From: Betaproteobacteria bacterium
GTDB taxonomy: Bacteria > Pseudomonadota > Gammaproteobacteria > Burkholderiales > JAEUOS01
NCBI GenBank assembly: GCA_028292405.1
Contig: JAQGMJ010000028.1
Span: forward strand, 145,962 to 209,961
Reading direction: 5' to 3'
Length of the DNA stretch: 64,000 nucleotides
In this document: one piece after another, positions 18,927 to 61,100 of the stretch
Position numbering within the stretch: position 1 is the first letter of the stretch
Layout: the number at the start of each line of letters is the position of its first letter
Made by a program: the position numbers and the translations under genes
Notes under the pieces: model-generated
The model's input: only the letters and a program-made list of their open reading frames with translations
What the model was told of the DNA's origin: nothing
Databases searched by the model: none

Positions 18927-18941
18927 TGGCATGGCGATTGC
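18927..18941 (+). promoter_or_regulatory. Sigma-54 promoter for VOC/ABC operon
   Basis: TGGCAT-GGCGA-TTGC matches the -24/-12 consensus TGGCAY-N5-TTGC with exact GG-N10-GC spacing. Predicted transcription start is near 18,953, about 42 nt before the VOC start codon. The sequence is almost identical to the atzF promoter (TGGCAT-GGGGA-TTGC). About 90 bp upstream lies GTGCG-N5-CGCAC, a possible activator site. Confidence 0.75.
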
Positions 18942-18994
18942 TGAATGGACACCATGCTCTTGCATCCCAGTCCGCATCCCTTACATCCATCCAT

Positions 18995-19498
18995 ATGATC
19001 ATCCACGGCCTATTCCACGTCGCCATCAAGACCAACGACCTTGAGGCCACGCGCTTTTTCTACTGCACGCTGATGGGCTTGAAGGAAGTCGCCCGCCCCG
19101 ACTTCGGCTACCCCGGCGCGTGGATCGCCTGCCCGCAACCGGGCGGTGCGGCGATCATCCACATCTACGCCGGCGGCCCCGCGCTGGGCCACGACGGCAA
19201 GACCGTCTCCGGCACCGCCGCCATCGACCACCTCTCGCTGGCCTGCTCCGGCTTTCACGAGTTCCGCGAACTGGTCGAGCGCAACGGCCTGCCTTACCGC
19301 GAGTTCCTGGTGCCCGGCACCACGCTCTGGCAACTCTTTGTCTACGACCCTTCCGGCGTGCAGCTCGAACTCACCTTCGAAGGCAGCGTCGAGAGCGGCC
19401 GCGCCCCCGACATGTCGCCCGGCCGCGCCTACGTCGCCGGCGCCAGTTTTTTCGATCCCGTCCCTTACATCAAACTCGGCAAAGGAGTCACCGCATGA
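18995..19498 (+). CDS. VOC-family (glyoxalase/dioxygenase-like) protein
   Basis: A 167-aa vicinal-oxygen-chelate protein. It begins MIIHGLFHVAIKTND, with the paired beta-alpha-beta-beta-beta modules of the family. Candidate metal ligands are His in FHVAIKT (about residue 8), His in AIDHLSLAC (about 82) and Glu in VQLELTFEG near the end. The ORF track begins far upstream, but this ATG starts the domain exactly and lies about 40 nt after a sigma-54 promoter. Its stop overlaps the start of the next gene (ATGA), so it is translationally coupled to the ABC importer. It may act on the imported compound or its product; substrate is unknown. Confidence 0.85.
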   Translation: MIIHGLFHVAIKTNDLEATRFFYCTLMGLKEVARPDFGYPGAWIACPQPGGAAIIHIYAGGPALGHDGKTVSGTAAIDHLSLACSGFHEFRELVERNGLPYREFLVPGTTLWQLFVYDPSGVQLELTFEGSVESGRAPDMSPGRAYVAGASFFDPVPYIKLGKGVTA

Positions 19499-20502
19499 AC
19501 CGCACCAAGGCCCAGGCACTCTCGTTGCAGTCCTTCCCGCGCCGCCGCCTGATGCTCGGCGCCATGGCCGTCTCGGCGATGGGCGTGGTGCGCTCGGCGC
19601 GCGCCGAAGACAAGTTGAAGATCGGCGTCTTTCCCTCTTCCTCTTCGGTGCCGATCTACGTCGGCATCGAGCGCGGCTACTTCAAGGAAGTCGGCATCGA
19701 GATCGAGGCCGTACCGATGAACACCCATCCGATCCAGGTGCAGGCGATCGTCGCCGGCGACATCGACGGCAGCTCCAACCTGGTGACCCTGGAAGGCGCC
19801 AACATCAACGGCCGCCGCCCCGGCACCCTCTCCTACATCTCGCTCAACGGCCAGAACGCGCAGTACATCACCGAGCAGTTCGTGGTCAAGCCCGGCAGCA
19901 CCGCCAAGACCATCAAGGACCTGAAGGGCGCGAAGATCTTCTGCGCCCCCGGCCCGGCCAACCTCGGCGCCGCCAAGGCCATCCTCAAGAGCGTCGGTCT
20001 GGAAGAAGGCCGCGACTACACCATGACCGAGCAGGGCATGGGCGTGCACATGGGCGCCATCCAGGGGGCCAACTTCGACGCCGGCTATACGCTCGAACCC
20101 CTCGGCACCATGATGATCAAGCAGGGCGTGGCCCGCCGCCTCGAAGGCGGCGTCATCGCCACCCACCTGCTGGGCCGGGTGGAAGCACAAGCCTATGCGG
20201 CCGGGGGACTTCTCTCCGGCAAGCTGCTGACGGAAAAGCCCGAGGTCGCCGCGCGTTATGCCAAGGCCTGGGCCAAGAGCGTGAAGGACGCCGGCAGCGA
20301 CCCGAAGGCGCGCGAATACCTGACCAAGTTCAACGTGCCCGCCGACCTGGTGCAGGCCGTGCCGCTGGCCAAGTTCACCATGATCAAGGATTTGAGACCG
20401 GCCGATTACGCCGACTTCCAGAAGTTCGTCGACCTCGGCGTCGACATGGGCGTGGTGAAGGACAAGATCGACGTCAAGACCATGCTCAAGTCCTATACCT
20501 GA
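19495..20502 (+). CDS. NMT1/THI5-like ABC transporter substrate-binding protein (Tat-type signal)
   Basis: A 335-aa periplasmic solute receptor of the NMT1/TauA/SsuA type. The true start is the ATG overlapping the VOC stop. The N-terminus carries PRRRLMLGAMAVSAMG, which could be a twin-arginine signal, with cleavage near SARA-ED. The mature protein opens LKIGVFPSSSSVPIYVGIERGYFKEVGIEIE, characteristic of the family. The receptor feeds the adjacent ATPase and permease. Family members bind sulfonates, pyrimidines, nitriles and other small organic molecules. The sigma-54 promoter upstream suggests a nitrogen-containing ligand, which is inference. Confidence 0.9.
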   Translation: MNRTKAQALSLQSFPRRRLMLGAMAVSAMGVVRSARAEDKLKIGVFPSSSSVPIYVGIERGYFKEVGIEIEAVPMNTHPIQVQAIVAGDIDGSSNLVTLEGANINGRRPGTLSYISLNGQNAQYITEQFVVKPGSTAKTIKDLKGAKIFCAPGPANLGAAKAILKSVGLEEGRDYTMTEQGMGVHMGAIQGANFDAGYTLEPLGTMMIKQGVARRLEGGVIATHLLGRVEAQAYAAGGLLSGKLLTEKPEVAARYAKAWAKSVKDAGSDPKAREYLTKFNVPADLVQAVPLAKFTMIKDLRPADYADFQKFVDLGVDMGVVKDKIDVKTMLKSYT

Positions 20503-20517
20503 ACACCATCGGCAGCA

Positions 20518-21354
20518 ATGAACACCCCGATCGACCTGATGAGCGCCATCACCGGCCCGGCCGCTAGCGGGCCCAGCGACCACCGCTGGTTTCCGCCGGG
20601 CACCCACATCACCGTGCGCGGCCTGACCAAGCGCTTCGGCGCCACCACCCTGTACGAAAACTTCAACCTCGACATCCCGCGCGGCCAGCTGATTTCGATC
20701 TTCGGGCCGAACGGCTGCGGCAAGAGCACCCTGATCAACATGATGTCGGGCATCTTGCCGATCGACGGCGGCGAGGTGCTGTTCGACGGTAAGGCGCTGC
20801 GCGACACGCGCATCGGCTACGTGTTCCAGAACTACCGCGAAGCCATGTTCCCCTGGCTGCGCGCGATCGACAACCTGCGCTATCCCCTCAAGTTCCTCAA
20901 GCTTTCCAAGGCGGAGAAGGACGCGCGGGTGGAAAGGATGATCGCGCGCTTCGACGTGAAGATCGACCTGCATCGCTACCCCTACGAGCTTTCCGGCGGG
21001 CAGCAGCAGATGGTCTCCATCATGCGCGCCCTCATCGTCGACCCCGAAGTGCTGTTCATGGACGAGCCTTTCTCCGCGCTGGATTACGAGATGACCCTCT
21101 TCATGCGCGAGCAATTGCAAAAGGTATTCATGGAAACCCGCACCACCACCCTCCTGGTCTCGCATGACCTTGAAGAAGCGGTGCACCTGGCCGACAAGAT
21201 TCTGCTGCTGACGCGCAAGCCCACGCATGTGGCCGACTACATTTCCTTCGATGCGCCGCGCCCGCGCGACACCGCGACCCTTTCCACTCCCGAGTTCGTG
21301 CGCGTCAAGGCGCACAGCCTCGAAGTGTTCCAGCGCGAGGTACGCAAGCCATGA
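20518..21354 (+). CDS. ABC transporter ATP-binding protein (TauB/SsuB type)
   Basis: A 278-aa ATPase subunit. Walker A is GPNGCGKST (about residue 63), the Q-loop is FQNYREAMFPW, the signature is LSGGQQQ (about 160), Walker B is VLFMDEP (about 180), and the switch His lies in LLVSHDLEEAVH. The length is typical for SsuB/TauB-like proteins, with about 30 extra N-terminal residues. It starts 15 nt after the receptor gene and its stop overlaps the permease start (ATGA), so all three subunits are one operon. Confidence 0.94.
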   Translation: MNTPIDLMSAITGPAASGPSDHRWFPPGTHITVRGLTKRFGATTLYENFNLDIPRGQLISIFGPNGCGKSTLINMMSGILPIDGGEVLFDGKALRDTRIGYVFQNYREAMFPWLRAIDNLRYPLKFLKLSKAEKDARVERMIARFDVKIDLHRYPYELSGGQQQMVSIMRALIVDPEVLFMDEPFSALDYEMTLFMREQLQKVFMETRTTTLLVSHDLEEAVHLADKILLLTRKPTHVADYISFDAPRPRDTATLSTPEFVRVKAHSLEVFQREVRKP

Positions 21355-22133
21355 AACCCTCGTTGAAAGAACACCTCCTCGCTCTCCTTGCCAAGCTGGC
21401 GCCCTTGTGGGGCGCGCTGGTGTTCGTCGCCTTGTGGTGGATCGCCACCAGCCTGAAGGTGATCGACCCGATCCTCCTGCCCTCGCCCGCCGATTCGGCC
21501 AAGGCGCTGTGGAAGGGCATGATGGGCGGCTCGCTGTGGCACGACTTCCTGCGCACTGTCACCCGCACCCTGCTCTCCTTCATCATCGCCGTGGCCATCG
21601 CGGTGCCGCTGGGCATCGTGCTCGGCTCTTCCGACAAGATCTACCGCGCGGTGGAATTCATCATCGACTTCTTCCGCTCCACCCCGGCCTCGGCGATGTT
21701 CCCCTTGTTCCTGGTGCTGTTCGGCGTCGGCGAGAAGACCAAGATCGCGGTGGCGGCTTTCGGCGCGGCGCTGGTGATCTTGTTCAACGTCGCCTACGGC
21801 GTGATGAACGCGCGCAAGCTGCGCCAGCTCGCCGCCCGCGTGATGGGCGCCTCGCGCATCGGCGTGCTGACGGATGTCACCTTCTGGGAGTCGATGCCGC
21901 AGACCTTCGTCGGCATGCGCTCCGGCGTCTCTCTCGCCCTGGTGATCGTCATCGTCGCCGAGATGTTCATCGGCTCCACCGACGGCCTGGGCCAGCGGGT
22001 GATCAACTCGCAAATGATCTTCGACATGCCCGAGATGTACGCCTCCATCTTCGCCGCCGGCGCGCTGGGCTACTGCCTGAACCTGCTGTTTCTTTCCATC
22101 GAGCGCAAGTTCGTCCACTGGGGCGGCAAGTAG
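21351..22133 (+). CDS. ABC transporter permease (TauC/SsuC type)
   Basis: A 260-aa inner-membrane permease with six or so hydrophobic segments, starting with LWGALVFVALWWIATSL. The EAA loop that docks the ATPase is the segment around AARVMGASRIGVLTDVTFWESMPQTFVGMRSG. The start codon overlaps the ATPase stop. As the last gene, it completes a VOC-receptor-ATPase-permease operon. The next gene is on the opposite strand 36 bases away. Confidence 0.93.
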   Translation: MKPSLKEHLLALLAKLAPLWGALVFVALWWIATSLKVIDPILLPSPADSAKALWKGMMGGSLWHDFLRTVTRTLLSFIIAVAIAVPLGIVLGSSDKIYRAVEFIIDFFRSTPASAMFPLFLVLFGVGEKTKIAVAAFGAALVILFNVAYGVMNARKLRQLAARVMGASRIGVLTDVTFWESMPQTFVGMRSGVSLALVIVIVAEMFIGSTDGLGQRVINSQMIFDMPEMYASIFAAGALGYCLNLLFLSIERKFVHWGGK

Positions 22134-26854: not shown

Positions 26855-27970
26855 CTAGGCGGCCTTGGCCACCAGCGCGATCATGCCGCCGCCGGGCGGG
26901 CCCTGGTGCTCGTCGCCGCCGGAGACGAAGATGCGGGTGTCGGCGATGACCCCGGCGACGAGGCCGCCGACGGCGCCGCGGATGTGGCGCTGGGCGTTGA
27001 TGTCGCCGTCCTGCCACATGGTGTGGCGCTGGCCGCGCACGTAGCCGCTGGCGTCGGGCTCGCATTTGATCATGGCAGCGGCGATTTGCCTTAGACCCGT
27101 CGCCGTATTGTCGCCAAGAGCGGCGATGCCGAGATCGGCCAGGCAGGCGTAGATGGCGTTGATGTCGAGGGCATCGGTCATCGGGCGGTGGGCGATGACG
27201 TAGTCCGAATTCCAGGCGGCGGAGTTGCCCAGCACCATCACTTCGTTGACGGCGACCTCCACCCCGGAGGAGATGCTGGCGCGTTCGGAGAACCAGTCGA
27301 GGCGCGAGAAGAAGGCGTCTTCGCGGATTTGGCCGGGCGGCAGTTCACCCAGGGCAGCGGCGACGCCGAAGGCGCCGGCGACGCGTGTGTAGGCCATGGA
27401 TTTGTTGGGGTCGGTCGTCACGAGTTGCGCGCCGCGCGCTTTGGCTTCGGCGGCACGCTCGGTGGTGACGCAGGGGCCTTTGACTTGCACGAAGTGAACG
27501 TCGGCCGGGTCGGTGATTTTGGCTTGCGCCATGGCGGCGCGTACGGCTTGCGCGACGCTGTTCACATGCGCGATGCGGCCGAGGTCTTCGGGGGCCAGCA
27601 CGGGGGTGAAGGCGGTGCCGACGGCGAGGGTTTTTTTGCCGGTGGGGGTTTGCGCGATTGGTTGTGCCGCCGGGTCGACGCTGAAGACCACGTAATGCGG
27701 GGTGAGCACGCCTTCGGTGCCGCCGGAGAAAACGAAAATCACTTTTTCGCCGATGGCGTCCATGCTCTGGCCGAGCTTTTCGGCGAGCAGGAGCTTGAGG
27801 GATTGCGTGAGGTAGCCGCGGGTGAAGTCGTTGACCAGGCCATTGCCCTCGGTCTTGCCGAGCACGGCGACGATGTGGGCTGGGTTGACTTTTCCCGCGC
27901 TGATGGCGACGGCGAGTTCGGAGACGTCGCCGGGGTCGCGCATGGTGAAGCGGTGGACGGAGGCGCGCAT
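26855..27970 (-). CDS. Ring-opening amidohydrolase, AtzD/barbiturase family (divergent paralogue)
   Basis: A 371-aa member of the cyanuric acid hydrolase/barbiturase family, whose three similar domains each supply a Ser-Lys pair around one active site. Seen here: GKTEGNGLVNDFTR (about residue 38), [12 protein letters not shown] (about 85), HFVQVKGP, ASISSGVEV with VMVLGN, GQRHTMWQDGDIN, and C-terminal [14 protein letters not shown]. It differs from classical AtzD at several conserved spots: KGP for KCP, NKSMAYTRVAG for [11 protein letters not shown]. The start VHRFTM and the SSGVE segment look closer to barbiturase-type members, so its substrate need not be cyanuric acid. It follows the flavin monooxygenase gene by 25 nt and is surely co-transcribed. 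I infer that the monooxygenase makes, or acts near, a cyclic imide opened by this enzyme. Confidence 0.88.
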   Translation of the reverse strand: MRASVHRFTMRDPGDVSELAVAISAGKVNPAHIVAVLGKTEGNGLVNDFTRGYLTQSLKLLLAEKLGQSMDAIGEKVIFVFSGGTEGVLTPHYVVFSVDPAAQPIAQTPTGKKTLAVGTAFTPVLAPEDLGRIAHVNSVAQAVRAAMAQAKITDPADVHFVQVKGPCVTTERAAEAKARGAQLVTTDPNKSMAYTRVAGAFGVAAALGELPPGQIREDAFFSRLDWFSERASISSGVEVAVNEVMVLGNSAAWNSDYVIAHRPMTDALDINAIYACLADLGIAALGDNTATGLRQIAAAMIKCEPDASGYVRGQRHTMWQDGDINAQRHIRGAVGGLVAGVIADTRIFVSGGDEHQGPPGGGMIALVAKAA

Positions 27971-27995
27971 ACGTTTTACGGTTTCTCGTTACGGG

Positions 27996-29219
27996 TCAGG
28001 GGTAGGTCGAGATGTCGCGGTACAGGCGCTTGAGGTTTTCCATGTAGGGCGGCTCGAGCTTTTTTCGCGTGCCGGCGACCGGGTCGGCGCCGGCGAGCAT
28101 GGTGTCCGTCGAGTAGAGGGAGAACTCCATCACGAACTTGATGCGTTCGCGGCGGCGCTGCTCGACTTCTTCGAGCCAGGCGGGTACCTCGGCCGCGCCG
28201 CCGCCGGCATTTAGCTTGGCGGTGAGTAGGTCGGCGACCATGCAGGCGCCTTCGATGGCTTGCGTGGCGCCCTGCCCTAGCGTGGGCACCATGCCGTTGG
28301 CGGAGTCGCCGAGGAACATGACGCGGCCGCCGGGGTCGCGGAACAGGGCGGGCGACTCCTGCAGGCGCGACCAGTGGATGCTGGGCAGGTTGTTGCAGAG
28401 GGTGTCGACCAGCCAGGCGCATTGCGCCGAGAGCGGGCCGCCGGCGGGGGTGAAGGCGCGGCGAAAGGCAGCGGCGGTTTTCATCTCGTCTGGAATCGGC
28501 GCGCCGGGTTCGATCGGAAAAGCGCCGGAGACGTAGATGTGATCTTCCGGCACCCTGAAGCCGAGCATGCGGTTGGGGCCGTTGAACCATTGCTCGTAGT
28601 CTTCGACCAAGCCGCCGGAGGTGTTGGGCACCAGCAGGCGCAGGATACTCACGCCGACATGCTTGATGTCGGGCACGCCGCAGAGCGTCTGGCGCAGCAG
28701 GGAGTAGCGGCCGTCGCAGGAGATCAGCAGGTCGATGTCGTCGATGCGTTTGGCGGCGCCGTTCTGGGTGTATTCGATCCAGGTGTGGTCGAAAACGGCG
28801 CGGCCCGCGCCGCTAACTGCCGGGTCCGCATAGCCCACGCCGGTGACTTCGCAGCCGAACTGCACGCAGGGACCGGCTTCGTGGCGCAGCACGCGGTAGA
28901 GCTCGGACCAGCGGATGCGGATGCCGGGATTGTCGGCGACGTTTTTCAGCGGCAGGTCGAACAGCACGGTGCCGTCGGTGAGCGAGATGCGCCAGTCGTG
29001 CCAGAGGAAGCTCTCGGCGAGCACGGCGTCGGCCAGCGCCTGCGAGTGGCGCTGCAGCGCCTTCAGGCCGTTGGGGCCGATGTTGAGACCGGTGCCGGAT
29101 TCGGAGTGGTCGTCGGCCACCACCTGCTCCAGGCAACTCACTTCCAGGCCCGGCAGCGCCGCCAGCGCCCGCGCCACGATACAGCCCGCCACCCCCGCTC
29201 CCACCACTACGACTTTCAT
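27996..29219 (-). CDS. FAD-dependent monooxygenase (aromatic-ring hydroxylase type)
   Basis: A 407-aa single-component flavoprotein hydroxylase. Visible motifs are the dinucleotide fold VVVGAGVAGCIVARAL at the very N-terminus, the DG motif LLISCDGRYSLLRQ (about 170) and the FAD-ribityl GD motif VMFLGDSANGMVPTLGQGA (about 300). The start has GGAG 7 nt upstream. Family members use NAD(P)H and O2 to hydroxylate aromatic or heteroaromatic rings. The amidohydrolase downstream suggests a nitrogen heterocycle (a pyridine, pyrimidine or purine) as substrate. This context-based assignment is inference. The gene is divergent from the RND efflux operon. Confidence 0.88.
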   Translation of the reverse strand: MKVVVVGAGVAGCIVARALAALPGLEVSCLEQVVADDHSESGTGLNIGPNGLKALQRHSQALADAVLAESFLWHDWRISLTDGTVLFDLPLKNVADNPGIRIRWSELYRVLRHEAGPCVQFGCEVTGVGYADPAVSGAGRAVFDHTWIEYTQNGAAKRIDDIDLLISCDGRYSLLRQTLCGVPDIKHVGVSILRLLVPNTSGGLVEDYEQWFNGPNRMLGFRVPEDHIYVSGAFPIEPGAPIPDEMKTAAAFRRAFTPAGGPLSAQCAWLVDTLCNNLPSIHWSRLQESPALFRDPGGRVMFLGDSANGMVPTLGQGATQAIEGACMVADLLTAKLNAGGGAAEVPAWLEEVEQRRRERIKFVMEFSLYSTDTMLAGADPVAGTRKKLEPPYMENLKRLYRDISTYP

Positions 29220-38616: not shown

Positions 38617-39363
38617 TCAGGCCTGCTGCACCCGCGCGGTATGCAGCATGTGCAGCGTGATCTTGCGCACTTCGGCCTTGCTGGCATCGATGTGGCTTTT
38701 CAGCAGCATCTGCGCCTCGTCGGCCTTGCGCAGCAGGATGGCCTTGAGGATGCGCGCGTGCTCGTTGTAGGTGGCGTCGATGCGCGCGTCCTGGGTGAAG
38801 TCGAGGCGGCGGATGATGCGGATGCGCTCGGTGAGGTCGTGGTGGATGCGCGCCATTTCCTGGTTGCCGGTGGCCAGCACCAGGGCGCCGTGGAACTGTT
38901 CGTCCAAGGCAGCGACGCCGCGGCCGTCGGTCAGGCGTTCCGGCTTGGGCACCAGCCAGGAATTTTTAAGATCATCCAGGGTGGCGCGCTCGTCCATTTC
39001 GCACAGGCGCTTGACGGCGGCCAGTTCGAGGATGACGCGCACGTCGTATAGGTCCTCGAACTGCTGGAAGTCGAAGGGGCGCACGCGCCAGCCGCTGCGG
39101 AACATCACTTCCAGGTAGCCCTCGCGCTCCAGCAGGTACAGCGCCTCTCGCACCGGGGTGCGGCTGACCTGCATGCGCCCGGCAATCTCCGCCTCGGTGA
39201 AGCGGTCGCCGGGGAGCAGGACGAAATCGAAAATCTCCTGCTTGACGCGCTCGAACACGCGCGCGGCGAGGTTGGAGTCCTTGCCCCGGGGTTCGGTCTT
39301 CGCTTCGGTTTTCGGCGTCGTCTTGGCTTTGTCGGTCGGACGTTTGGCTAGAGTAGTCGTCAT
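38617..39363 (-). CDS. GntR-family regulator, FCD type (atz locus)
   Basis: A 248-aa transcription factor. A Lys/Thr-rich lead of about 30 residues precedes the winged helix (VFERVKQEIFDFVLLPGDRF, recognition helix VSRTPVREALYLLEREGYLEV). The C-terminal FCD ligand domain has the expected metal-site His pattern (DEQFHGALVLATGN, IHHDLTERIRIIRR, EHARILKAI). It is a close paralogue of the GntR in the receptor-deaminase operon, sharing the LLPGDRF and SRTPVREALY segments. It follows atzE by 142 bp in the same direction. I infer it controls the atzFGE promoter through the TTGTATACAT site. Confidence 0.9.
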   Translation of the reverse strand: MTTTLAKRPTDKAKTTPKTEAKTEPRGKDSNLAARVFERVKQEIFDFVLLPGDRFTEAEIAGRMQVSRTPVREALYLLEREGYLEVMFRSGWRVRPFDFQQFEDLYDVRVILELAAVKRLCEMDERATLDDLKNSWLVPKPERLTDGRGVAALDEQFHGALVLATGNQEMARIHHDLTERIRIIRRLDFTQDARIDATYNEHARILKAILLRKADEAQMLLKSHIDASKAEVRKITLHMLHTARVQQA

Positions 39364-39505: not shown

Positions 39506-40891
39506 CTAAAGCTGCGCCACCGGCGCGCTGGCTACGCCGGCCAGCTCCAGCGCCGCCGCCACCCGCAGCGCATCGGCTTCGCGCCAGGGCTTGGCGATCA
39601 CCTGCAGGCCGATCGGCAGCGGCCCCAGGCCGTGCACCGGCACGGCGACGATCGGCAGGCCGATGAAGGACAGCGGTTGCGTCAAAATGCCCATCGAAGG
39701 CCGCGCCGGCAGTTGCTTGCCGTTGAGTTCGAAGGTGTCGGCGCCGACCGGGGTGGCTGCCACCGGCGTGGCCGGGGCGATGATCACGTCGGTGTCGGCG
39801 AATGCGCGCATCACCGCGTGGTAGAACCACAGGCGAAAGCGCTGCGCCTGTACGTACCACTGCACCGGCGTCAGGGCGTTGGCGAGAAAACGGTCGCGGA
39901 TGGCCGGGTCGAAGTCGTCAGGACGGCTGCGCAGGTCGGCCAGGTGCAGGTTGCTGCCCTCCGAGGCGGTGATGACAAAGGCGGCGGCGCGGGCGCGCTG
40001 CGCTTCGGGCAGGATGATTTCGCGGCTAACGTTGAGCGCCTTGGCGGCGGCGGCGACCGCGGCCAAAGCCTGCGGCCCGGCGTTCTCCCTGAAGTAGCCG
40101 CTGGCCACGGCCACGCGCAGGTTGCCCAGGCCTTCCTTGAGCAATTGCTGGGTCGGCTCCATGGCGCGGCGCGCCTGCGCGTAGTCACGCGTGTCCTGGC
40201 CTTGCAGGGCGTCGTAGACGGCGGCCAGGTCGGCGGCGCTGCGGGCGAAGGGGCCGACATGGTCCAGGCTGCAGGTGAAGGGGTAGGAGCCGCGGCGCGA
40301 CAGCCGGCCGTAGGTGGGCTTGATGCCGAAGATGCCGCACAGCGAGGAAGGCACGCGGATCGAGCCGTTGGTGTCGGTGCCGAGCGTCAGCGGCACCATG
40401 CCGGCGGCCACTGCCGCGCCGGAACCGCCAGAGGAGCCGCCGGCCACGCGCGTCAGGTCGTGCGGGTTGCGGGCGGTGCCGTAGTGGGCGTTTTCGGTGG
40501 TGAAGCCGAAGGCGTACTCGTCCATGTTGAGCGCGCCCTGCAGCACGGCGCCGGCGCCGCTCATGCGCGCCACCAGGGCGGAGTCTTCCTTGGCCGGCGG
40601 CAGGTCGCGGTTGATTTTCGAGCCGGCGACGGTGGTGAGGCTCTCGATGTCGAACAGGTTTTTCGCGGCGTAGGGCACGCCGGCCAAAGGCGGCAGCGGG
40701 TGGCCCGCGGCGCGCGCGTTGTCGATGGCGCGCGCTTCGGCCAGCGCGCGTTCGCGGGTGACGGCGGTGAAGGCGTGGATCTTGCCATCGAGGGCATCGA
40801 TGGTTTTCAGCGCAGCCTCGGCAGCCTCGACTGCCGAGATGCGGCCGGCGCCGATGGCCGCGGCGATGCCCAGTGCGTCCATGGATTTCAT
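39506..40891 (-). CDS. atzE: 1-carboxybiuret hydrolase catalytic subunit (AtzE-type amidase)
   Basis: A 461-aa amidase-signature enzyme. The Ser-cisSer-Lys triad is visible: Lys in PYAAKNLFD (about residue 77), the Gly/Ser-rich loop GGSSGGSGAAVAAGMVPL, and LGTDTNGSIRVPSSLCGIFGIKPT. The ATG of MKSMDALG overlaps the preceding stop (ATGA). GatA of tRNA amidotransferase has the same fold, but there is no GatB or canonical GatC here. The small DUF4089 gene directly upstream and atzF beyond it point to AtzE, which removes ammonia from 1-carboxybiuret in cyanuric acid breakdown. A related cyclic-ureide amide could also be the substrate. Confidence 0.85.
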   Translation of the reverse strand: MKSMDALGIAAAIGAGRISAVEAAEAALKTIDALDGKIHAFTAVTRERALAEARAIDNARAAGHPLPPLAGVPYAAKNLFDIESLTTVAGSKINRDLPPAKEDSALVARMSGAGAVLQGALNMDEYAFGFTTENAHYGTARNPHDLTRVAGGSSGGSGAAVAAGMVPLTLGTDTNGSIRVPSSLCGIFGIKPTYGRLSRRGSYPFTCSLDHVGPFARSAADLAAVYDALQGQDTRDYAQARRAMEPTQQLLKEGLGNLRVAVASGYFRENAGPQALAAVAAAAKALNVSREIILPEAQRARAAAFVITASEGSNLHLADLRSRPDDFDPAIRDRFLANALTPVQWYVQAQRFRLWFYHAVMRAFADTDVIIAPATPVAATPVGADTFELNGKQLPARPSMGILTQPLSFIGLPIVAVPVHGLGPLPIGLQVIAKPWREADALRVAAALELAGVASAPVAQL

Positions 40892-41076
40892 ACGCCGGGC
40901 TTCCACAGCGGCGCCGGCTCGTCTTCGGGCGTCAGCGGGAATTCATTGACCAACGCGGCGAGTTGCGCGAGGCGGGTGAAGTTTTCCAGCACGCCGGGGC
41001 GGTGCGCGGCGCTCACCGGCAACTCCAGCGCGGCGCTGGCGGCATCGACGTATTTCTCTATTTGGTCCGGAGTCAT
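40888..41076 (-). CDS. atzG: AtzG-like small subunit (DUF4089)
   Basis: A 62-aa protein, MTPDQIEKYVDAASAALELPV..., close in size to AtzG, the small partner that wraps and stabilises AtzE much as GatC does GatA. It carries the helix-linker pattern VLENFTRLAQLAALVNEFPL and a short C-terminal tail (PLWKPGV). It is not listed with this start in the ORF track. AAGG precedes the ATG. The start of atzE overlaps its stop, and it begins 22 nt after atzF ends, fixing the order atzF-atzG-atzE. Confidence 0.82.
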   Translation of the reverse strand: MTPDQIEKYVDAASAALELPVSAAHRPGVLENFTRLAQLAALVNEFPLTPEDEPAPLWKPGV

Positions 41077-41098: not shown

Positions 41099-42904
41099 TC
41101 AGGCCTTCGCCAGGCTGGCGAGATACGCGCGCCAGCCGCCGAAGGAGGAAATGTCAGTCGCGCCGGCCGCGGCGATGCCTTCGCAGACGAAGCCCTTGAC
41201 CCAGGCGCCGTCCTGCAATTGCACCGAGCCGATGGCCAGCGGCGGCGGCACTTCGGCGACAAAGGCGCCGAAGCTCTCCAGCGGCACGTCCCATAGCTCA
41301 AGCGCGATGGAAGCGCCGCCGTCGGCGCGCAGCATGCCCGGCTTGGGCGGCACCGTGCCCGGCAGGGCATAGAGGCGATAGGCCGGCGCGCTTAGCGCTT
41401 CGCCGGCGAAGCGCGCGCCGCGCGTGGTGAGCTGGTGGTTCAGCGGCAGGCCGCGGAGGTGGGCGCCGACTACTGCGATGCGAGCGTGGCCGGGGGCAGG
41501 CGGCGCAAGCGCCGATGTATCTTGCGCGGGCAGTTCCAGCCCGGTGGCGCCGAGCGGCAGGCCGGTGTCGTGCTGCCAGCGGTCGGCGAAGCCGACTAGG
41601 GCTTCGTCGTACCAGGCCGGCGCGATCAGGGTGATGCCGAAGGGCAGGCCATCATTGCGCATGGCGGCGGGCACGGCGATGGCGCAGAGGTCGAGCAGGT
41701 TGACGAAATTGGTGTAGGTGCCGAGGTGGCTGTTTTTCACCACCGGGTCGTCGTTCACTTCCTTGATGGTGTAGATGGTCGGCGCGCTGGGCACCAGCAG
41801 GGCGTCGATGTCTTTCCACACCGGGGCGGTCATGCGGCGCAATTCCTCGCGGCGGTAGTAGGCCTTGAAGGCATCGACCGCGCTGTAGGCGGTGGCGCCG
41901 GCGATCACCTCGCGCACCACCGGGTGGACGATCTCCGGGCGCTCGCGCATTACCGTTTCGATGGCGGCGTAGCGCTCGGCCACCCAGGGGCCGTCGTAGA
42001 GCAGCGCCGCGGTGGCGAGGAAAGGGGAGAGGTCGATGGAGCTGATCACCGCGCCCATGCGCTGCGCCCGCTCGACCGCCTGCTCGAACACGCGCTGCTG
42101 CTCGGCGTCGCCGAAAAATTCGAGCTGCGCGGGAATGCCCAGGCGCGGCGCGGCGCCGAGTGTCGCCGCGCCGGCGGCGGGGTGACGCGAATAGGTGTCG
42201 CCGGGGTCGAAGCCGCTGGCGGCGGCCAGCACTTGCGCGCCATCGGCGGCGGTGAGCGCGAAAATCGAAACACAGTCGAGCGAGCGGCAGGCCGGCAGCA
42301 TGCCGCGCGCCGACAGCCGCCCCACCGTCGGCTTGATGCCGACAATATTGTTGAAGCCCGCCGGGATACGGCCGGACCCGGCAGTATCTGTTCCCAAGGC
42401 AAAGCTCACCAGGCCGCGCGCCACCACCGAGGCGGAGCCGGAGCTGGAGCCGCCGGAGATGTACTCCGGCTTGAAGCTGTTTTTCACCGCGCCGTAGGGC
42501 GAGCGGGTACCGACCAGGCCGGTGGCGAACTGGTCGAGATTGGTCTTGCCGACGAGGATGGCGCCGGCGTCGACCAGGCGCTGCACCACCGCTGCGCTCT
42601 CGACCGGCATGAAGGCGAATTCCTTGCAGGCAGCCGTGGTGTGCATGCCGGCGTAGTCGATGTTGTCCTTGATCGCGAAGGGAACGCCGTAGAGCGGCAG
42701 GCCGGCGAGCGAGCCGCCTGCTGTGGCGCGGCGCTGCTCCAGCATTGCCACCTGGGCGGCGATGCCGGCGGCCGAGACGCGGGAGATCCAGGCGTTGTCC
42801 TCGCCGGCGGCGTCGCAGCGCGCCAGCACTTCTTGCATTGCCGTGGCGGGAGTGAGGGAGCCCGCAAGGTATTGCCGGCGCAGGGACGAAATCAGCAGGT
42901 TCAC
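41099..42904 (-). CDS. atzF: Allophanate hydrolase (AtzF-type)
   Basis: A 601-aa enzyme, nearly the length of AtzF from Pseudomonas sp. ADP. The N-terminal amidase domain has the catalytic Lys in PFAIKDNIDY, the serine loop ISGGSSSGSASVVARG and FALGTDTAGSGRIPAGFNNIVGIKP (short segment of the signature). The C-terminal domain (about 450-601, from HARIAVVGAHLRGLPLNHQL) is the allophanate-hydrolase-specific region that completes decarboxylation. I place the start at GTG (MNLLISS) with AAAGG upstream, because the extra 19 codons in the track cover the promoter. It splits allophanate to CO2 and ammonia, the last step of cyanuric acid, biuret or urea use. A sigma-54 promoter lies directly upstream. 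Confidence 0.92.
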   Translation of the reverse strand: MNLLISSLRRQYLAGSLTPATAMQEVLARCDAAGEDNAWISRVSAAGIAAQVAMLEQRRATAGGSLAGLPLYGVPFAIKDNIDYAGMHTTAACKEFAFMPVESAAVVQRLVDAGAILVGKTNLDQFATGLVGTRSPYGAVKNSFKPEYISGGSSSGSASVVARGLVSFALGTDTAGSGRIPAGFNNIVGIKPTVGRLSARGMLPACRSLDCVSIFALTAADGAQVLAAASGFDPGDTYSRHPAAGAATLGAAPRLGIPAQLEFFGDAEQQRVFEQAVERAQRMGAVISSIDLSPFLATAALLYDGPWVAERYAAIETVMRERPEIVHPVVREVIAGATAYSAVDAFKAYYRREELRRMTAPVWKDIDALLVPSAPTIYTIKEVNDDPVVKNSHLGTYTNFVNLLDLCAIAVPAAMRNDGLPFGITLIAPAWYDEALVGFADRWQHDTGLPLGATGLELPAQDTSALAPPAPGHARIAVVGAHLRGLPLNHQLTTRGARFAGEALSAPAYRLYALPGTVPPKPGMLRADGGASIALELWDVPLESFGAFVAEVPPPLAIGSVQLQDGAWVKGFVCEGIAAAGATDISSFGGWRAYLASLAKA

Positions 42905-42919
42905 GAAGCAAAAACCTTT

Positions 42920-42929
42920 ATGTATACAA
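42920..42929 (-). promoter_or_regulatory. Candidate GntR operator TTGTATACAT at atzF transcript start
   Basis: The minus-strand 10-mer TTGTATACAT, with palindromic core TGTATACA, spans the predicted start of transcription of atzF. The same 10-mer occurs upstream of the PrpD operon. FCD-type GntR proteins commonly bind TNGT..ACNA sites of this kind. Confidence 0.6.
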
Positions 42930-42939
42930 GATAGTTTAC

Positions 42940-42954
42940 GCAATCCCCATGCCA
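42940..42954 (-). promoter_or_regulatory. Sigma-54 promoter for atzFGE
   Basis: Minus strand TGGCAT-GGGGA-TTGC, with exact GG-N10-GC spacing. The predicted start site is near 42,929, about 25 nt before the GTG of atzF. It is a 14-of-15 match to the promoter of the VOC/ABC operon. Confidence 0.78.
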
Positions 42955-43079
42955 AAACCAATCAAATGTTCAATGCCCCGGCCGGGATTGGCCACGGAAC
43001 CCGCGCGGCTGACAGTGGTTTGCAAGAAGAAAGCCACGTGGAGGCGAATCGCTGCCCCTAGAGGCAAAACAAAGCGCTT

Positions 43080-43137
43080 GTGCGCGTTTGCGTGCGCTTT
43101 ATGTCGCGCATCGCACCATGCACCGACCATTCGCACC
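43080..43137. promoter_or_regulatory. Cluster of NtrC-like half-sites between divergent sigma-54 promoters
   Basis: Two GTGC (43,080; 43,092) and three GCACC or GCAC half-sites (43,113; 43,120; 43,133) are packed in 58 bp, 100-185 bp from both divergent sigma-54 promoters, the normal range for an enhancer. No full TGCACC-N5-GGTGCA site is present, so activator identity is inferred. Confidence 0.4.
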
Positions 43138-43233
43138 AACATGGGGCGGGCGACTTCAATGCACGCAAAACCGGCGCGGACGCGGCATCAGCCGCCCATC
43201 TAGGATGCCAGATAGAATCCCAGTTGAACGGCT

Positions 43234-43248
43234 TGGCACTTTTGTTGC
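43234..43248 (+). promoter_or_regulatory. Sigma-54 promoter for receptor-deaminase operon
   Basis: TGGCAC-TTTTG-TTGC is a perfect match to the -24/-12 consensus, including a T-rich spacer. The predicted start is near 43,259, about 27 nt before the receptor ATG. Confidence 0.82.
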
Positions 43249-43285
43249 TCATCTCATGGGTCCGGCCAACCTGGGGAACCGTTCA

Positions 43286-44311
43286 ATGAAAATCCTGCCT
43301 CGCATCCTCGCCTGCCTGCTGCTGGCCGCCTGCGCCGCCACCGCGCAGGCGCAAAGTGCCGCCCCGACCAAAATCAAGTTCGTGCTCGACTGGAAATTCC
43401 AGGGCCTGCACGCCTGGTTCATCACTGCGGCCGAGAAAGGCTATTTCGCGCAGGAAGGGCTGGACGTGACCATCGACTCCGGCGACGGCTCAGCCGCCGC
43501 CGTGACCAAGGTGGCCACCGGCGCCTATGACGCGGGCTTCGGCGACATGAGCGCGATCATCCAGGTAGCGGCGACCTCGCCCGCCACCGCGCCGGTGGGC
43601 GTGTTCATGCTGTACAACCGTTCGCCCTTCGTCATCGTCTCGAAGAAGGACCACAACATCCTCAAGCCGAAAGACCTTGAGGGCAAGCTGCTGGGCAGCC
43701 CGGCCAACGGCGCCACCTACAAGCTGTTTCCCGCCTTCGCCAAGGCGGCGGGCATCGACGCCTCCAAGGTGAGGACCACCAACATCGCGGCCAACCTGCA
43801 GGAAACCATGCTGGTGCGCGGCGAGGTGGATTTTCTCGCCGCCTTTGTCAACACCATCTGGTTTTCCTTGAAGCCGCTGAAGGTGGACCCGGAGAAGGAC
43901 CTGAACCTGATCTACTTTGCCGACTACGGCATCGACCTGTACAGTAATGGCGTGCTGGTGTCGCAAAACCTGATCAAGAACAACCCGAACGCCGTCAAGG
44001 GCCTGGTGCGGGCGATCAACCGCGCGATGACCGATGTGCTGGCCAATCCGGATGCGGCGATCGAAGCAGTAGCCAAGCGCGATCCGCTGATCGACAAGGC
44101 CCTGGAGAAGGAACGCCTGCTGATGACTTACAAACTACTGATTGCCACGCCGGAAGCAAAGGAGCTGGGCATCGGCGACGTCAAGGACGAGCGCATGGCG
44201 CGCTCGATCAAGACGGTGGCCGAGGTCTACGGCCTGGCGACGCCGCCTAAACCGCAGGACGTGTTTTCGCGCGCCTTCCTGCCGCCGAAGGCGGAACGGA
44301 TGGTGCGCTGA
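43286..44311 (+). CDS. NMT1/THI5-like ABC substrate-binding protein (no own permease nearby)
   Basis: A 341-aa periplasmic receptor with signal peptide (ILACLLLAACAATAQA; the Cys might be lipidated, but an AQA-QS cut looks better). The opening KIKFVLDWKFQGLHAWFITAAEKGYF matches the NMT1/THI5 family that binds pyrimidine-like and other small ring compounds. The ATG lies at a proper distance from a perfect sigma-54 promoter. Its stop overlaps the deaminase start (TGATG). No ATPase or permease gene follows, so it may share the TauBC-like pair at 20.5-22.1 kb or one elsewhere. Candidate ligand: the heterocycle processed by the enzymes downstream. Confidence 0.9.
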   Translation: MKILPRILACLLLAACAATAQAQSAAPTKIKFVLDWKFQGLHAWFITAAEKGYFAQEGLDVTIDSGDGSAAAVTKVATGAYDAGFGDMSAIIQVAATSPATAPVGVFMLYNRSPFVIVSKKDHNILKPKDLEGKLLGSPANGATYKLFPAFAKAAGIDASKVRTTNIAANLQETMLVRGEVDFLAAFVNTIWFSLKPLKVDPEKDLNLIYFADYGIDLYSNGVLVSQNLIKNNPNAVKGLVRAINRAMTDVLANPDAAIEAVAKRDPLIDKALEKERLLMTYKLLIATPEAKELGIGDVKDERMARSIKTVAEVYGLATPPKPQDVFSRAFLPPKAERMVR

Positions 44312-45657
44312 TGGCAAGTTTGCTGATCAAGGGGGCGCTGGGCGCGTTGACGGGTGAAGCATCGCCGGCGGCGCGGCTGCCGGCCGTGGATGTGCGGGTG
44401 GCCGGCGGGCTGATCGAGGAGATCGCGCCGGCTTTGCAAGCACGCCCCGGTGAGAGCGTGCTCAATGCCGACGGCTGCGTGCTTTATCCAGGCCTGGTAA
44501 ACACGCACCATCATATGTTCCAGAGCCTGCTCAAGGGCGTGCCCGCGGGCATCAACGAGGGCCTGGGGCTGTGGCTGCGCGGCGTGCATTTGCCGCGCCT
44601 GCCGATTTTCGACGAGGAGATGGTGCGCGTGGGCGCGACCCTGGCACTGGTGCAAATGGCGCTTTCGGGCGCCACCACGGTGGCCGACCATTACTATTTG
44701 CATCATGCTGGCGCGGCGGGCGTGCTGTTCGAGGCGGCCGAGCAACTGGGCTTGCGCCTGGTGCTGTGCCGCGGCGCGGTGACGGTGAAGAGCGCCAATC
44801 CGGACTACCCGGACATCGTGCCGCCGGTGAGCTTCGATGCAATGTTGCGCGATATCGACGACCTGGCGGCGCGCTACCACGACCCGTCTGCCGATTCGCG
44901 GCGCCGGGTGGCGGTGGCGCCGCTGACGCCGACCTATTCGGTAACGCCGGCCGAACTCACGGAACTGGCTCGCTTTGCCCGCGCCAAGGGGCTGCGCATG
45001 CACACCCATCTTTCCGAGACGCTGGACTACATCAGCTATACGCGCGAGAAGCACGATTGCCTGCCGGTGCAGTTCATGGCGGAGCACGAGTGGCTGGGGC
45101 GCGACGTCTGGCTGGCGCACATGGTGCATCTGGCGCCGGAGGAAGTCGCGATGGTCGCGGCCAGCGGCACCGGCATCGCCCATTGCCCCACCAGCAACGC
45201 GCGCCTGGGCAGCGGCATCGCGCCCCTGCCCGCTTATACGCAGGCGGGCGTTTCGGTGTCGCTGGGTGTCGATGGCCCAGCCTGCAGCGAGGCCAGCCAC
45301 ATGCTGGACGAGGCGCGCATGGCCTGGCTGATCCATCGCGCGGCCAGCGGGCCGAAGAGCACCACGGTGGAAAACATCGTGCACGCGGCGACCCGCGCCG
45401 GTGCAGTCAATCTCGGCCTCGACAATGTCGGGTTGCTGAAACCCGGCATGGCTGCCGACCTGGTGGCTTTCGAACTCGAAGGGCCGGCTTACTGGGGCCA
45501 GCACGACGCGCTGGCCGCTCCTCTGATCACCGGGCATGCGCGGGTACGGCATTCGCTGGTGGGCGGCCGCGCGGTGGTGCGCGATGGCCTGCTTCCTGCA
45601 ATCGACCTGGAGAAGTTGCGCCACGACGCCGCCGCGGCGGTAGCGAAACTGCACTGA
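44311..45657 (+). CDS. TRZ/ATZ-family amidohydrolase (deaminase; 8-oxoguanine deaminase/AtzB-like)
   Basis: A 448-aa metal-dependent aminohydrolase of the amidohydrolase superfamily. Metal and catalytic residues appear in order: NTHHHMFQSLLKG (about residue 68), HTHLSETLDYI (about 230), WLAHMVHL (about 270) and LGVDGPACSEASHM (about 320). The mononuclear-metal pattern matches hydroxyatrazine/8-oxoguanine/guanine-type deaminases that release ammonia from a ring amine. In an s-triazine setting it could convert ammeline or ammelide towards cyanuric acid; 8-oxoguanine to urate is an alternative. It is translationally coupled to the receptor upstream. The substrate is inferred, the family is firm. 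Confidence 0.87.
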   Translation: MASLLIKGALGALTGEASPAARLPAVDVRVAGGLIEEIAPALQARPGESVLNADGCVLYPGLVNTHHHMFQSLLKGVPAGINEGLGLWLRGVHLPRLPIFDEEMVRVGATLALVQMALSGATTVADHYYLHHAGAAGVLFEAAEQLGLRLVLCRGAVTVKSANPDYPDIVPPVSFDAMLRDIDDLAARYHDPSADSRRRVAVAPLTPTYSVTPAELTELARFARAKGLRMHTHLSETLDYISYTREKHDCLPVQFMAEHEWLGRDVWLAHMVHLAPEEVAMVAASGTGIAHCPTSNARLGSGIAPLPAYTQAGVSVSLGVDGPACSEASHMLDEARMAWLIHRAASGPKSTTVENIVHAATRAGAVNLGLDNVGLLKPGMAADLVAFELEGPAYWGQHDALAAPLITGHARVRHSLVGGRAVVRDGLLPAIDLEKLRHDAAAAVAKLH

Positions 45658-45716: not shown

Positions 45717-46451
45717 ATGCCCGCCACTCCCCTTCACGCCCAGCGCCCGCGCGCCGTGTCCGCCCCGCGCCGCTCCCTGGCCGATGCGATCTACGAGCAG
45801 CTCAAGTCCGAGGTGTTCGACTTCCGCCTGCTGCCGGGCGACCGCTTTTCCGAGTCCGAACTCGCCGAGCGCCTGCACGTGAGCCGCACGCCGGTGCGCG
45901 AGGCGCTCTACCGGATGGAGCGCGAAGGCTATATGGAGGTGCATTTCAAGAGCGGCTGGAGCATCTGCCAGATCGACTTCGCCCAGTTCGAGAATCTCTA
46001 TGACTTGCGGCTGATCCTCGAATCCGAGGCGGTACGGCGCATCTGCCAGATGCCGGAAAACACCGAGCTGCAGCGCCTGGCGCAGCTCTGGCTGGTGGCG
46101 CCGGAGGAGCGCGTGCACGACAGCGCGCGCATCTCGAAAATGGACGAGAGCTTTCACTCGACGCTGGTGGAAATCGCCGGCAACCCGGAGATCAGCCGGG
46201 TGCACCACGAGATCACCGAGCGGGTGCGGATCATCCGCCGGCTGGGGTTTTCCGGGCCGGAGCGGGTCGGCAAGTCGTACGACGAGCACGGCGCGATTCT
46301 CAAATACATTTTGCGCAACCGCGCCGACCAGGCGGTGATGCTGCTGAAAAGCCACATCGAGCTTTCCAAGGCGCAAGCGCGCGAGATCACTCTGCACCAT
46401 CTTTCGGAGGCGCGCCAGCGTTTGCGTCCACGCAGGCTCAAGGTGGTGTGA
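45717..46451 (+). CDS. GntR-family regulator, FCD type (deaminase operon)
   Basis: A 244-aa regulator. The winged helix covers IYEQLKSEVFDFRLLPGDRF and the recognition helix VSRTPVREALYRMEREGYMEV; the FCD domain has DESFHSTLVEIAGN, VHHEITERVRIIRR and YDEHGAILKYI with metal-binding His. It is a close paralogue of the GntR beside atzE. The ATG start is a choice, since the frame is open further upstream; it begins 59 nt after the deaminase stop and the Arg/Pro-rich lead is not conserved. It probably regulates its own operon or the shared divergent region. Confidence 0.88.
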   Translation: MPATPLHAQRPRAVSAPRRSLADAIYEQLKSEVFDFRLLPGDRFSESELAERLHVSRTPVREALYRMEREGYMEVHFKSGWSICQIDFAQFENLYDLRLILESEAVRRICQMPENTELQRLAQLWLVAPEERVHDSARISKMDESFHSTLVEIAGNPEISRVHHEITERVRIIRRLGFSGPERVGKSYDEHGAILKYILRNRADQAVMLLKSHIELSKAQAREITLHHLSEARQRLRPRRLKVV

Positions 46452-46488: not shown

Positions 46489-47274
46489 ATGAACCTGCAA
46501 GACAAAGTAGCCATCGTCACCGGCCCGGCCAAGGGCATGGGCACCGACATCACGCTTACCCTGGCGCGGGCCGGCGCCGACCTGGTGCTGGCCGGCCGCG
46601 ACATGGCGGCGATCGCGCCGGTGAAGGAGCAGGTGGCCGCGCTCGGTCGGCGCGTGATCGCGGTGGCCTGCGACGTCACCCGCGAGGAAGACGTGGCCGT
46701 GCTGGCGAAGGAGGCGCTGATGCATTTCGGGCGCATCGACATCCTGGTCAATTGCGCCGGCGGCACCGGCACCATCGAGAAACCCGGCCACGAGAACACG
46801 GTGGAAGAGTTCGAGCAGATCCTCGACCTCAACATGAAGGGCTGCTGGCTCACCATGCGCGCCGTGCTGCCGACCATGATCGCGCAGCGCTACGGCAAGA
46901 TCGTCAACGTCGGCGGCACCTTCGGCATGCGCGGGCGCTCCGGGCGCATGGCCTACAGCGCTTCCAAGTGGGGCCTGCGCGGCATTACCAAGAGTACCGC
47001 CATCGAGGTCGGCACGCACAACATCAACGTCAACTTCGTCGCTCCCGGCATGGTCGAGGGCGAGCGCTTCAACACCAAGGTGATGCCGGAGAAGGCGAAA
47101 AAGCTCGGGCTTTCGCTGGAAGATGCGCGCAAGACTTTCGAGGCCGAGTACGCGCTGCGGCGGATTTCCACCGGGCAGGACATTGCCAACGCGGTGCTGT
47201 TTCTTGCCAGCGACATGTCGCGGCAAATTACCGGCGTCGATCTCCCGGTCGATGGCGGCTGGGCTGCGCTGTAG
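46489..47274 (+). CDS. Short-chain dehydrogenase/reductase (SDR)
   Basis: A 261-aa classical SDR with TGPAKGMG (cofactor-binding TGxxxGxG, residues about 12-19), NCAGG in place of NNAG, and the catalytic YSASK with the upstream Ser replaced by GGTFGMRG (VNVGGTFG), so the usual catalytic Ser is not obvious. The C-terminus DLPVDGGWAAL is standard. It could oxidise or reduce an intermediate of the pathway; the substrate is unknown. It follows the GntR gene by 37 nt and is the last gene before a strong terminator. Confidence 0.88.
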   Translation: MNLQDKVAIVTGPAKGMGTDITLTLARAGADLVLAGRDMAAIAPVKEQVAALGRRVIAVACDVTREEDVAVLAKEALMHFGRIDILVNCAGGTGTIEKPGHENTVEEFEQILDLNMKGCWLTMRAVLPTMIAQRYGKIVNVGGTFGMRGRSGRMAYSASKWGLRGITKSTAIEVGTHNINVNFVAPGMVEGERFNTKVMPEKAKKLGLSLEDARKTFEAEYALRRISTGQDIANAVLFLASDMSRQITGVDLPVDGGWAAL

Positions 47275-47310
47275 CAGGCAAAAGTAAAAACCTACTTTTG
47301 CCTGGTTTTA
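47275..47310 (+). terminator. Strong intrinsic terminator after SDR
   Basis: CAGGCAAAAGTA-AAAACC-TACTTTTGCCTG is a perfect 12-bp stem with 6-nt loop, followed by GTTTTAATT, directly after the SDR stop. It separates the deaminase operon from the next three genes. Confidence 0.88.
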
Positions 47311-51506: not shown

Positions 51507-52319
51507 CTAGCTTTTGCCGCCCGGCGCAAACAGTCGCTTGACCCGCGCCTTGTGCGCCTCGTGGATGTGTGCGCGCGTCAGCTTGTCGGCGGCATCGGCA
51601 TCGCGCCTGGCGATGGCATCGACAATCGCCGCATGCTCCACCGCGTTGGCGCGCGCCCGCGCCGGGTCGGCCAGGTTGGAGTCGCCCAGGAGGCCGAGCG
51701 CGTCGTGCAGCGGGTCGAGCATTTTCAGCAAAAAGCGATTGTGCGCGCAGCGGTACAGCGCCTCGTGGAACTGGCGGTTCTTTTCCGCCAGCTCGGCGTC
51801 GCGACCGCTTTTCACCAGCGCGGCGTATTGCGCTCCCAGTTCGGTCAGCAGCGATACCTCGACCTCGGAGGCCACCTGTGCCGCCAGGCGCGCCGCCATG
51901 CCTTCGAGCATCTCGCGCATCACGTATAGCTCGCCGACCATCGAGTGGTCGAACTCCGCCACCATGATGCCGCGCTGCCCGTGCTCGGTGGCGAGACCAT
52001 CGGCCAGCAGGCGGTACAAGGCCTCGCGCACCGGCGTGCGCGAAAGGCCAAGGGACTCGGCCAGCTCCACTTCGCGCAGTCGGTCGCCCGAACGAAAGCG
52101 CCGCTGGCGTATCGCGCGGCGGATTTCCTGGTAGGCATGCTCGCCGCGCGGCAGGTCGGCCAGGGCATCGACGCTAGGCCCCAGCGGCGCGAGGGGTGCA
52201 TTCGCCGCCTCGGCGCGCACGCGCGGCGCGGCGCGCAGTGCAGCACGCGGCGCGACCCTGGCGGCCGGCCTGGCCGCGGGCTTGACCGCGGGTTTCACCG
52301 CTCTGGGGCTCTTGGGCAT
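51507..52319 (-). CDS. GntR-family regulator, FCD type (PrpD/TcuA operon)
   Basis: A 270-aa regulator. An unusual N-terminal stretch of about 45 residues is rich in Lys, Pro, Ala and Arg (KPAVKPAARPAARVAPRAA), histone-tail-like and possibly non-specific DNA-binding. The winged helix has YQEIRRAIRQRRFRSGDRL and recognition helix LSRTPVREALYRLLADGL. The FCD domain has NRQFHEALYRCAHN and VEHAAIVDAI with metal-binding His. It is the last gene of the six-gene operon, 6 nt after the flavoprotein stop, and likely controls it through TTGTATACAT upstream. Confidence 0.9.
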   Translation of the reverse strand: MPKSPRAVKPAVKPAARPAARVAPRAALRAAPRVRAEAANAPLAPLGPSVDALADLPRGEHAYQEIRRAIRQRRFRSGDRLREVELAESLGLSRTPVREALYRLLADGLATEHGQRGIMVAEFDHSMVGELYVMREMLEGMAARLAAQVASEVEVSLLTELGAQYAALVKSGRDAELAEKNRQFHEALYRCAHNRFLLKMLDPLHDALGLLGDSNLADPARARANAVEHAAIVDAIARRDADAADKLTRAHIHEAHKARVKRLFAPGGKS

Positions 52320-59037: not shown

Positions 59038-59165
59038 TGCAGGATCGACTCGGAGGTAATAGGGAAGTGGATGTTGCGGAAGGAAACAGGAGAAGGCCCG
59101 GGCAGCGGCCGTCAGTCGCGCCGGAAGATGGGACGTGGAGCATCCTCAATGTCCTCTGGATTCTA

Positions 59166-59175
59166 TTGTATACAT
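59166..59175 (-). promoter_or_regulatory. Candidate GntR operator TTGTATACAT upstream of PrpD operon
   Basis: TTGTATACAT, identical to the 10-mer over the atzF start of transcription, lies in the 530-base gap upstream of the six-gene operon. Its core TGTATACA is palindromic. I could not place a -35/-10 near it with confidence. Confidence 0.55.
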
Positions 59176-59478
59176 TGGAACACAGCAACGCCCGGCAGCG
59201 CATTTTGCCGCATAAGCCGCCCGCTATTGCCCGCCCCGCGCGGCATGCAAATCAACCACACTTAGTTGTCGGGTTCGCGTATGTTTGAAACCAAGGTCGC
59301 CGCCATTAAGTGCGGCCGCGCTCTTTAACATCGCCCCATTTGGCTTGGCGCCTGATCGGTGTAGCGCGACCACAGTTGTGTTGAACGAAGCGGCCAAGCG
59401 TCGCTTCTTTGCAAGGTGGCGTGCGTTTTTTTGAAAAAACCTCAGGTTTTCTCGGGTTTTAGCGACTAAACATGCACC

Positions 59479-61015: not shown

Positions 61016-61031
61016 TGCAAGGCACATGCCA
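61016..61031 (-). promoter_or_regulatory. Sigma-54 promoter for GST gene
   Basis: Minus strand TGGCAT-GTGCC-TTGCA matches the -24/-12 consensus completely, with GG-N10-GC spacing. The predicted start is near 61,005, about 63 nt before the GST ATG. It lies back-to-back with the phaZ promoter. Confidence 0.75.
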
Positions 61032-61045
61032 ATTAAAGGGCCGTC

Positions 61046-61060
61046 TGGCACAGCTATTGC
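61046..61060 (+). promoter_or_regulatory. Sigma-54 promoter for PHB depolymerase
   Basis: TGGCAC-AGCTA-TTGC is a perfect -24/-12 match. The predicted start is near 61,071, about 30 nt before the ATG of the depolymerase. Confidence 0.8.
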
Positions 61061-61100
61061 CTTGTACTAATCAAAACAGCACCAAGCGGCGGACAACTCT

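Follow-up and report, generated by a model that had tools for sequence, protein, structure and literature searches.

Divergent sigma-54 boxes and a conserved palindrome over the atzF start suggest joint nitrogen and GntR control of an atz-like locus in Burkholderiales

The window, by which we mean the whole stretch of 64,000 nucleotides analysed from contig JAQGMJ010000028.1, carries two divergent groups of genes separated by the intergenic region 42905-43285. The minus-strand group runs in the order atzF, atzG, atzE and a gene coding for a GntR/FCD regulator. Its first gene, which starts with GTG, encodes an atzF-like allophanate hydrolase with amidase and AH_C domains (41102-42904; TIGR02713, 809.6 bits against a cut-off of 511; PF21986). 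It is followed by an AtzG-like small subunit of 62 amino acids (40888-41076; PF13318, E 6.5e-17), an AtzE-family amidase (39506-40888; NF006631, 695.6 bits against a cut-off of 461) and the regulator (38617-39363; PF00392 and PF07729). The plus-strand group opens with a periplasmic binding protein of the NMT1/SsuA type (43286-44311; PF09084) and an amidohydrolase-family deaminase (44311-45657; PRK12393), followed by a second GntR/FCD regulator (45765-46451, with an approximate start codon), assigned by its profile and by its 55% identity to the first, and by a short-chain dehydrogenase/reductase (SDR) recognized by profile matches (46489-47274). Hydantoinase/allantoinase-like, atzD and M20 peptidase genes come after it. 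A terminator-like hairpin of 12 pairs followed by GTTTTAATTC lies between the SDR and hydantoinase genes (47275-47304, plus strand), so that the plus transcript may end before the hydantoinase, atzD and M20 genes, in which case atzD would be transcribed separately.

The initial annotation had read the locus on the model of the atz cyanuric acid genes of Pseudomonas sp. ADP. AtzD, AtzG, AtzE and AtzF are indeed encoded together, and AtzD shares 63.5% identity with its pADP-1 counterpart. Four observations make a cyanuric acid pathway doubtful: the open reading frames of the locus include no atzH between atzE and the GntR gene; the atzF-atzE operons of the nearest relatives contain, in the stretches read, a peptide-type ABC transporter and no atzD; the hairpin stands before atzD; and the deaminase is of the guanine/8-oxoguanine/isoxanthopterin kind. 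Its nearest solved structure is 2paj, an isoxanthopterin deaminase. Cyanuric acid is a possible substrate, and a compound derived from purines, pterins or ureides is as likely a candidate; atz names in such clusters need not imply herbicide breakdown. Trees were set aside as a guide to function, as neither protein was resolved: AtzD branches apart from the atzE-linked group as well as from the hydantoinase-linked one, and AtzE groups with its four family relatives only. The stretch 26858-29219 (minus strand) holds another AtzD-family gene, which has 47% identity to the first and exceeds the AtzD cut-off, preceded by a FAD monooxygenase-like gene. A conserved module of binding protein, SDR, hydantoinase, AtzD, ABC ATPase and permease genes occurs in Burkholderiales (Variovorax, Aquabacterium and Pigmentiphaga; loci L075, L077, L085-L087, L089, L095, L111, L119, L130, L137 and L147), with upstream sigma-54 boxes nearly always absent.

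Two divergent sigma-54 promoters had been proposed in the intergenic region, as TGGCAT-N5-TTGC on the minus strand (42940-42954) and TGGCAC-N5-TTGC on the plus strand (43234-43248), and both are present letter for letter. The complete -24/-12 elements are TGGCATGGGGATTGCG for atzFGE (42939-42954, minus strand) and TGGCACTTTTGTTGCT for the receptor-deaminase operon (43234-43249, plus strand), each with GG and GC at -24 and -12 in the TGGCAY-N5-TTGC spacing. From TTGC to the start codon there are 35 nt on the minus side (GTG at 42904) and 37 nt on the plus side (ATG at 43286). If the C of TTGC is taken as -12, transcripts are predicted to start at about 42928 and 43260, with leaders of 24 and 26 nt. 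Scored with an approximate sigma-54 matrix (maximum 18.8), the plus box reaches 17.2, the top match in 64 kb, and the minus box 14.6. When the intergenic region was shuffled under a first-order Markov model, 0.15% of the shuffles contained a box that matched or exceeded the plus box in score, and 0.05% contained two boxes of at least 14.6. Genome-wide counts were made by pattern searches in place of matrix scans: the 5.5 Mb genome has 52 sites of the form TGGCAY-N5-TTGC and 6 of the reversed pattern, and the window holds 5 of the 52 sites where 0.6 are expected (P ~4e-4). The presence of the two boxes is beyond chance.

Two RpoN and two NtrC proteins score above curated cut-offs in this genome; each ntrC sits after an ntrB, and one of these sets comes after glnA. 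The two NtrB-NtrC pairs and two RpoN genes (L154 and L195; contigs C11 and C89), in an assembly with an estimated contamination of about 4%, may reflect a duplication or a mixed bin. Judged by translations, other sigma-54 matches of the genome stand at genes for nitrate reductase, nitrate transport, hydantoinase, xanthine dehydrogenase and nucleoside-type transport, which are predicted to serve nitrate, purine and pyrimidine scavenging, and several sigma-54 matches of the genome have NtrC palindromes upstream. Autoregulation of ntrC was considered and dropped, as the two nearby matches fall within ntrB coding sequence at matching positions.

A comparable promoter architecture is found before atzF in the four nearest genomes, whose AtzF proteins are 60-64% identical to that of the window. 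All four carry a sigma-54 box 52-66 nt before the atzF start, of a quality expected 0.0017 times per 40-nt stretch, and all four carry an NtrC palindrome 90-116 nt further up, which would turn up by chance in about 0.5-3% of 250-nt stretches. In other Burkholderiales atz clusters too, sigma-54 boxes precede atzF, atzD or the transporter, and some of these clusters add NtrC sites in pairs, spaced 30 nt. In two genomes (G138 and G236) divergent boxes flank an NtrC palindrome at atzF. The proposed layout therefore has real parallels. Sigma-54 control of both sides, as initially annotated, is supported, with NtrC as the likely activator: the genome codes for RpoN and two NtrC-family proteins, relatives have sites for sigma-54 and NtrC before atzF, and the other sigma-54 sites of the genome stand at the scavenging genes named above.

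Just past the minus box lies an element that the initial annotation had overlooked, the palindrome CTTGTATACA(A/T) at 42919-42930, which covers positions -2 to +10 of the expected atzF transcript. Read on the minus strand, it is CTTGTATACATA (ideal form CTTGTATACAAG), a predicted GntR/FCD operator. In the aligned family promoters the window has CTTGTATACATA, three relatives CTTGTATACATG and the fourth CATGTATACATG, with TGTATACAT invariant in all five members. Allowing up to two mismatches, the palindrome stands just before atzF at 13 of 30 atzF loci. It is restricted to atzF promoters: the 29 loci other than that of the window gave 12 matches within 100 nt before the start and none at 131,286 other positions. 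CTTGTATAC occurs once in the window. When 399 genomes of the order were searched for a composite pattern, a sigma-54 box followed by TTGTATAC, 19 sites came up (none for the reversed pattern). Of these sites, 11 are at atzF and most others precede genes for binding proteins or transporters; in the genome studied here the only one is at atzF. Palindrome and sigma-54 box are not always paired, since four atzF loci have the former and lack the latter.

The palindrome co-occurs with the GntR/FCD regulator encoded after atzE. Of 300 genomes, 39 have an orthologue of this regulator and 38 of these 39 also have atzF; in palindrome-bearing genomes most orthologues lie within 15 kb of atzF. The genomes of 13 of the 13 atzF loci with the palindrome and of 2 of the 17 without it contain an orthologue, a difference (P ~2e-6) that is inflated by shared ancestry, with several loci per family and loci not fully independent. 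The value becomes ~2e-5 if the genome G270, counted as having an orthologue for a contig-cut GntR copy next to atzF, is placed among those without. At least five families enter the comparison, and one of them, f10, has both kinds of locus. That another regulator binds the palindrome, or that it is a feature of initial transcription, is an unlikely reading. The second GntR of the window and the two loci that lack the palindrome and have the GntR elsewhere in the genome would fit it; the absence of an orthologue for 15 of the 17 palindrome-less loci, as well as its presence in the genome of every palindrome locus, argues for the regulator encoded after atzE. Repression is suggested by the position of the palindrome over the start, and both this direction and a ligand that would relieve it are proposals. 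The earlier view that a GntR takes the place of AtzR gains from this co-occurrence.

The two promoters differ in what is conserved. As judged from the sequences compared, the minus box is kept in the family, and the plus promoter has no palindrome and a box that is not conserved: the closest relatives of the receptor gene have no strong counterpart before them (12.8 at best in one, none of at least 11 in the others), and 12 of 13 related modules have no sigma-54 box upstream. Conservation of the divergent arrangement as a whole was rejected as an argument, the arrangement being limited to this genome among those examined and the plus-operon relatives mostly lacking the box. This contrast could mean that the atzF promoter alone works with sigma-54, the plus box being unused, the receptor-deaminase operon driven otherwise and no enhancer shared. 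We hold that to be quite unlikely: the plus box is the best of the 64 kb, near consensus, rightly oriented and 37 nt from its start codon, and the best NtrC-type palindrome of the region lies about 94 nt upstream of it, which is a proper distance.

A shared enhancer had been read from five GTGC/GCAC half-sites between the promoters. There are in fact six (43080, 43092, 43113, 43120, 43133 and 43161), which is an ordinary number: the shuffle mean is 4.1, P for six or more is about 0.23, and 12% of window segments hold as many. Half-site counting was accordingly abandoned as evidence, and the cluster as such does not speak for a shared enhancer. A single pair of half-sites forms an NtrC-type palindrome, CGCACCAACATGGGGCG at 43132-43148, with one arm degenerate; it is the best such palindrome between the promoters and our candidate for a shared site. 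With the textbook consensus matrix its P value in the intergenic region is about 0.08. With a matrix trained on 16 sites, taken from relatives and from elsewhere in this genome and none from the window, P is about 0.009 over 279 nt and 0.002 over the 100 nt suitably spaced from the plus box, the former figure depending in part on the choice of training sites by consensus scan. The palindrome begins about 190 nt from the minus box, in relatives mostly 90-116 nt, and is the sole good NtrC candidate for the minus promoter. We infer that NtrC would bind here and that one enhancer may serve both promoters. The least likely of the alternatives, in which both promoters use sigma-54 and are served by another enhancer-binding protein or by NtrC acting independently of a site, GCAC/GTGC being background, would suit the ordinary half-site count, the consensus P value and the atzR promoter of Pseudomonas sp. 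ADP, which NtrC activates without upstream sites, yet it sits poorly with the NtrC palindromes beside the atzF box of all four relatives, at other sigma-54 promoters of this genome and in other atz clusters.

We therefore return to a divergent nitrogen-control region, probably with sigma-54 and NtrC acting on both sides and a GntR/FCD protein repressing atzFGE. Sigma-54 RNA polymerase would wait at both boxes and start transcription only once NtrC, phosphorylated when nitrogen is limiting, acts on it from the region in between, with 43132-43148 as the most likely site. On the atzFGE side a second control would be added, in which the GntR/FCD repressor binds the palindrome over the start and its block is lifted once a compound of the pathway is present. 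Of the initial annotation, the boxes, sigma-54, NtrC and the replacement of AtzR by a GntR are retained. The half-site count, the cyanuric acid substrate and the idea that both sides always switch together fare less well, the last being doubtful because only the atzF side carries an operator.

Nitrogen control of atz operons is itself already known. According to PMC6834077, which cites Platero et al. 2012, nitrogen starvation induces the two divergent atz operons of Pseudomonas sp. ADP, and both depend on sigma-54. The window resembles the pADP-1 arrangement atzDGEHF/atzRSTUVW in its divergent hydrolase and ABC transporter operons and in its AtzD, AtzG, AtzE and AtzF homologues. It differs in that the minus operon begins with atzF, a GntR/FCD gene stands in for the LysR-type AtzR, no atzH was seen between atzE and the GntR gene, the receptor belongs to the NMT1/SsuA type and atzD is found only much further along the plus strand, past the terminator-like hairpin. 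Comparative genomics has predicted atzF to be an NtrC target in Rhizobiales (PMC5343134), whereas the present locus belongs to Burkholderiales and has the additional palindrome over the transcript start. In the atzG-atzE-atzH clusters of Burkholderiales, atzF precedes the other genes in the same orientation, and an ABC transporter often comes in between (PMC6219798). The window shares the upstream atzF, and the four family relatives also have the transporter; in the window no transporter gene separates atzF from atzG, and the facing operon is that of the receptor and deaminase. In G138 (L040), divergent sigma-54 boxes with an NtrC palindrome between them and CTTGTATACAAG over the atzF start are likewise found, but the genes serve urea breakdown and urea uptake, the atzF-urea carboxylase genes facing a urtA-like urea receptor gene.

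A literature search for the palindrome letters gave unrelated matches only, among those listed, and no title or abstract dealt with control of allophanate hydrolase by a GntR. The literature compared did not feature the palindrome together with its GntR, so that the atzF promoter appears to differ from the known kind. We put at even chances a broader proposal, in which a so far unnamed promoter with two keys, NtrC/sigma-54 and a GntR/FCD operator CTTGTATACAAG over the start, is widespread in Burkholderiales and joins atzF (in urea amidolyase and carboxybiuret-type pathways) with transporters of nitrogen compounds in a single regulon. If so, a GntR of unassigned role would gain a target sequence and a function, and general nitrogen status would be combined with a specific substrate signal at a single start site. 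The regulon would also be searchable by sequence, the composite pattern already reaching nitrogen-compound transporters beyond atzF.

Further sites were seen elsewhere. A sigma-54 box, TGGCATGGCGATTGCT (18927-18942, plus strand), stands some 53 nt upstream of the start codon (ATG at 18995) of a short VOC-like gene, which in turn precedes an ABC transporter (19516-22130); in G239 (L235), a 64% identical ATPase gene has the composite promoter of sigma-54 box and TTGTATAC. Between a GST-like gene and a polyhydroxybutyrate depolymerase-like gene (61016-61061) there are two more divergent sigma-54 boxes, TGGCATGTGCCTTGCA on the minus and TGGCACAGCTATTGCC on the plus strand, at a distance of about 30 nt. 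Finally, ATTGTATACATT at 59165-59176, the only other TGTATACA in the window, lies upstream of MmgE/PrpD-like genes (minus strand) and is perhaps a site for a third GntR (51507-52319).
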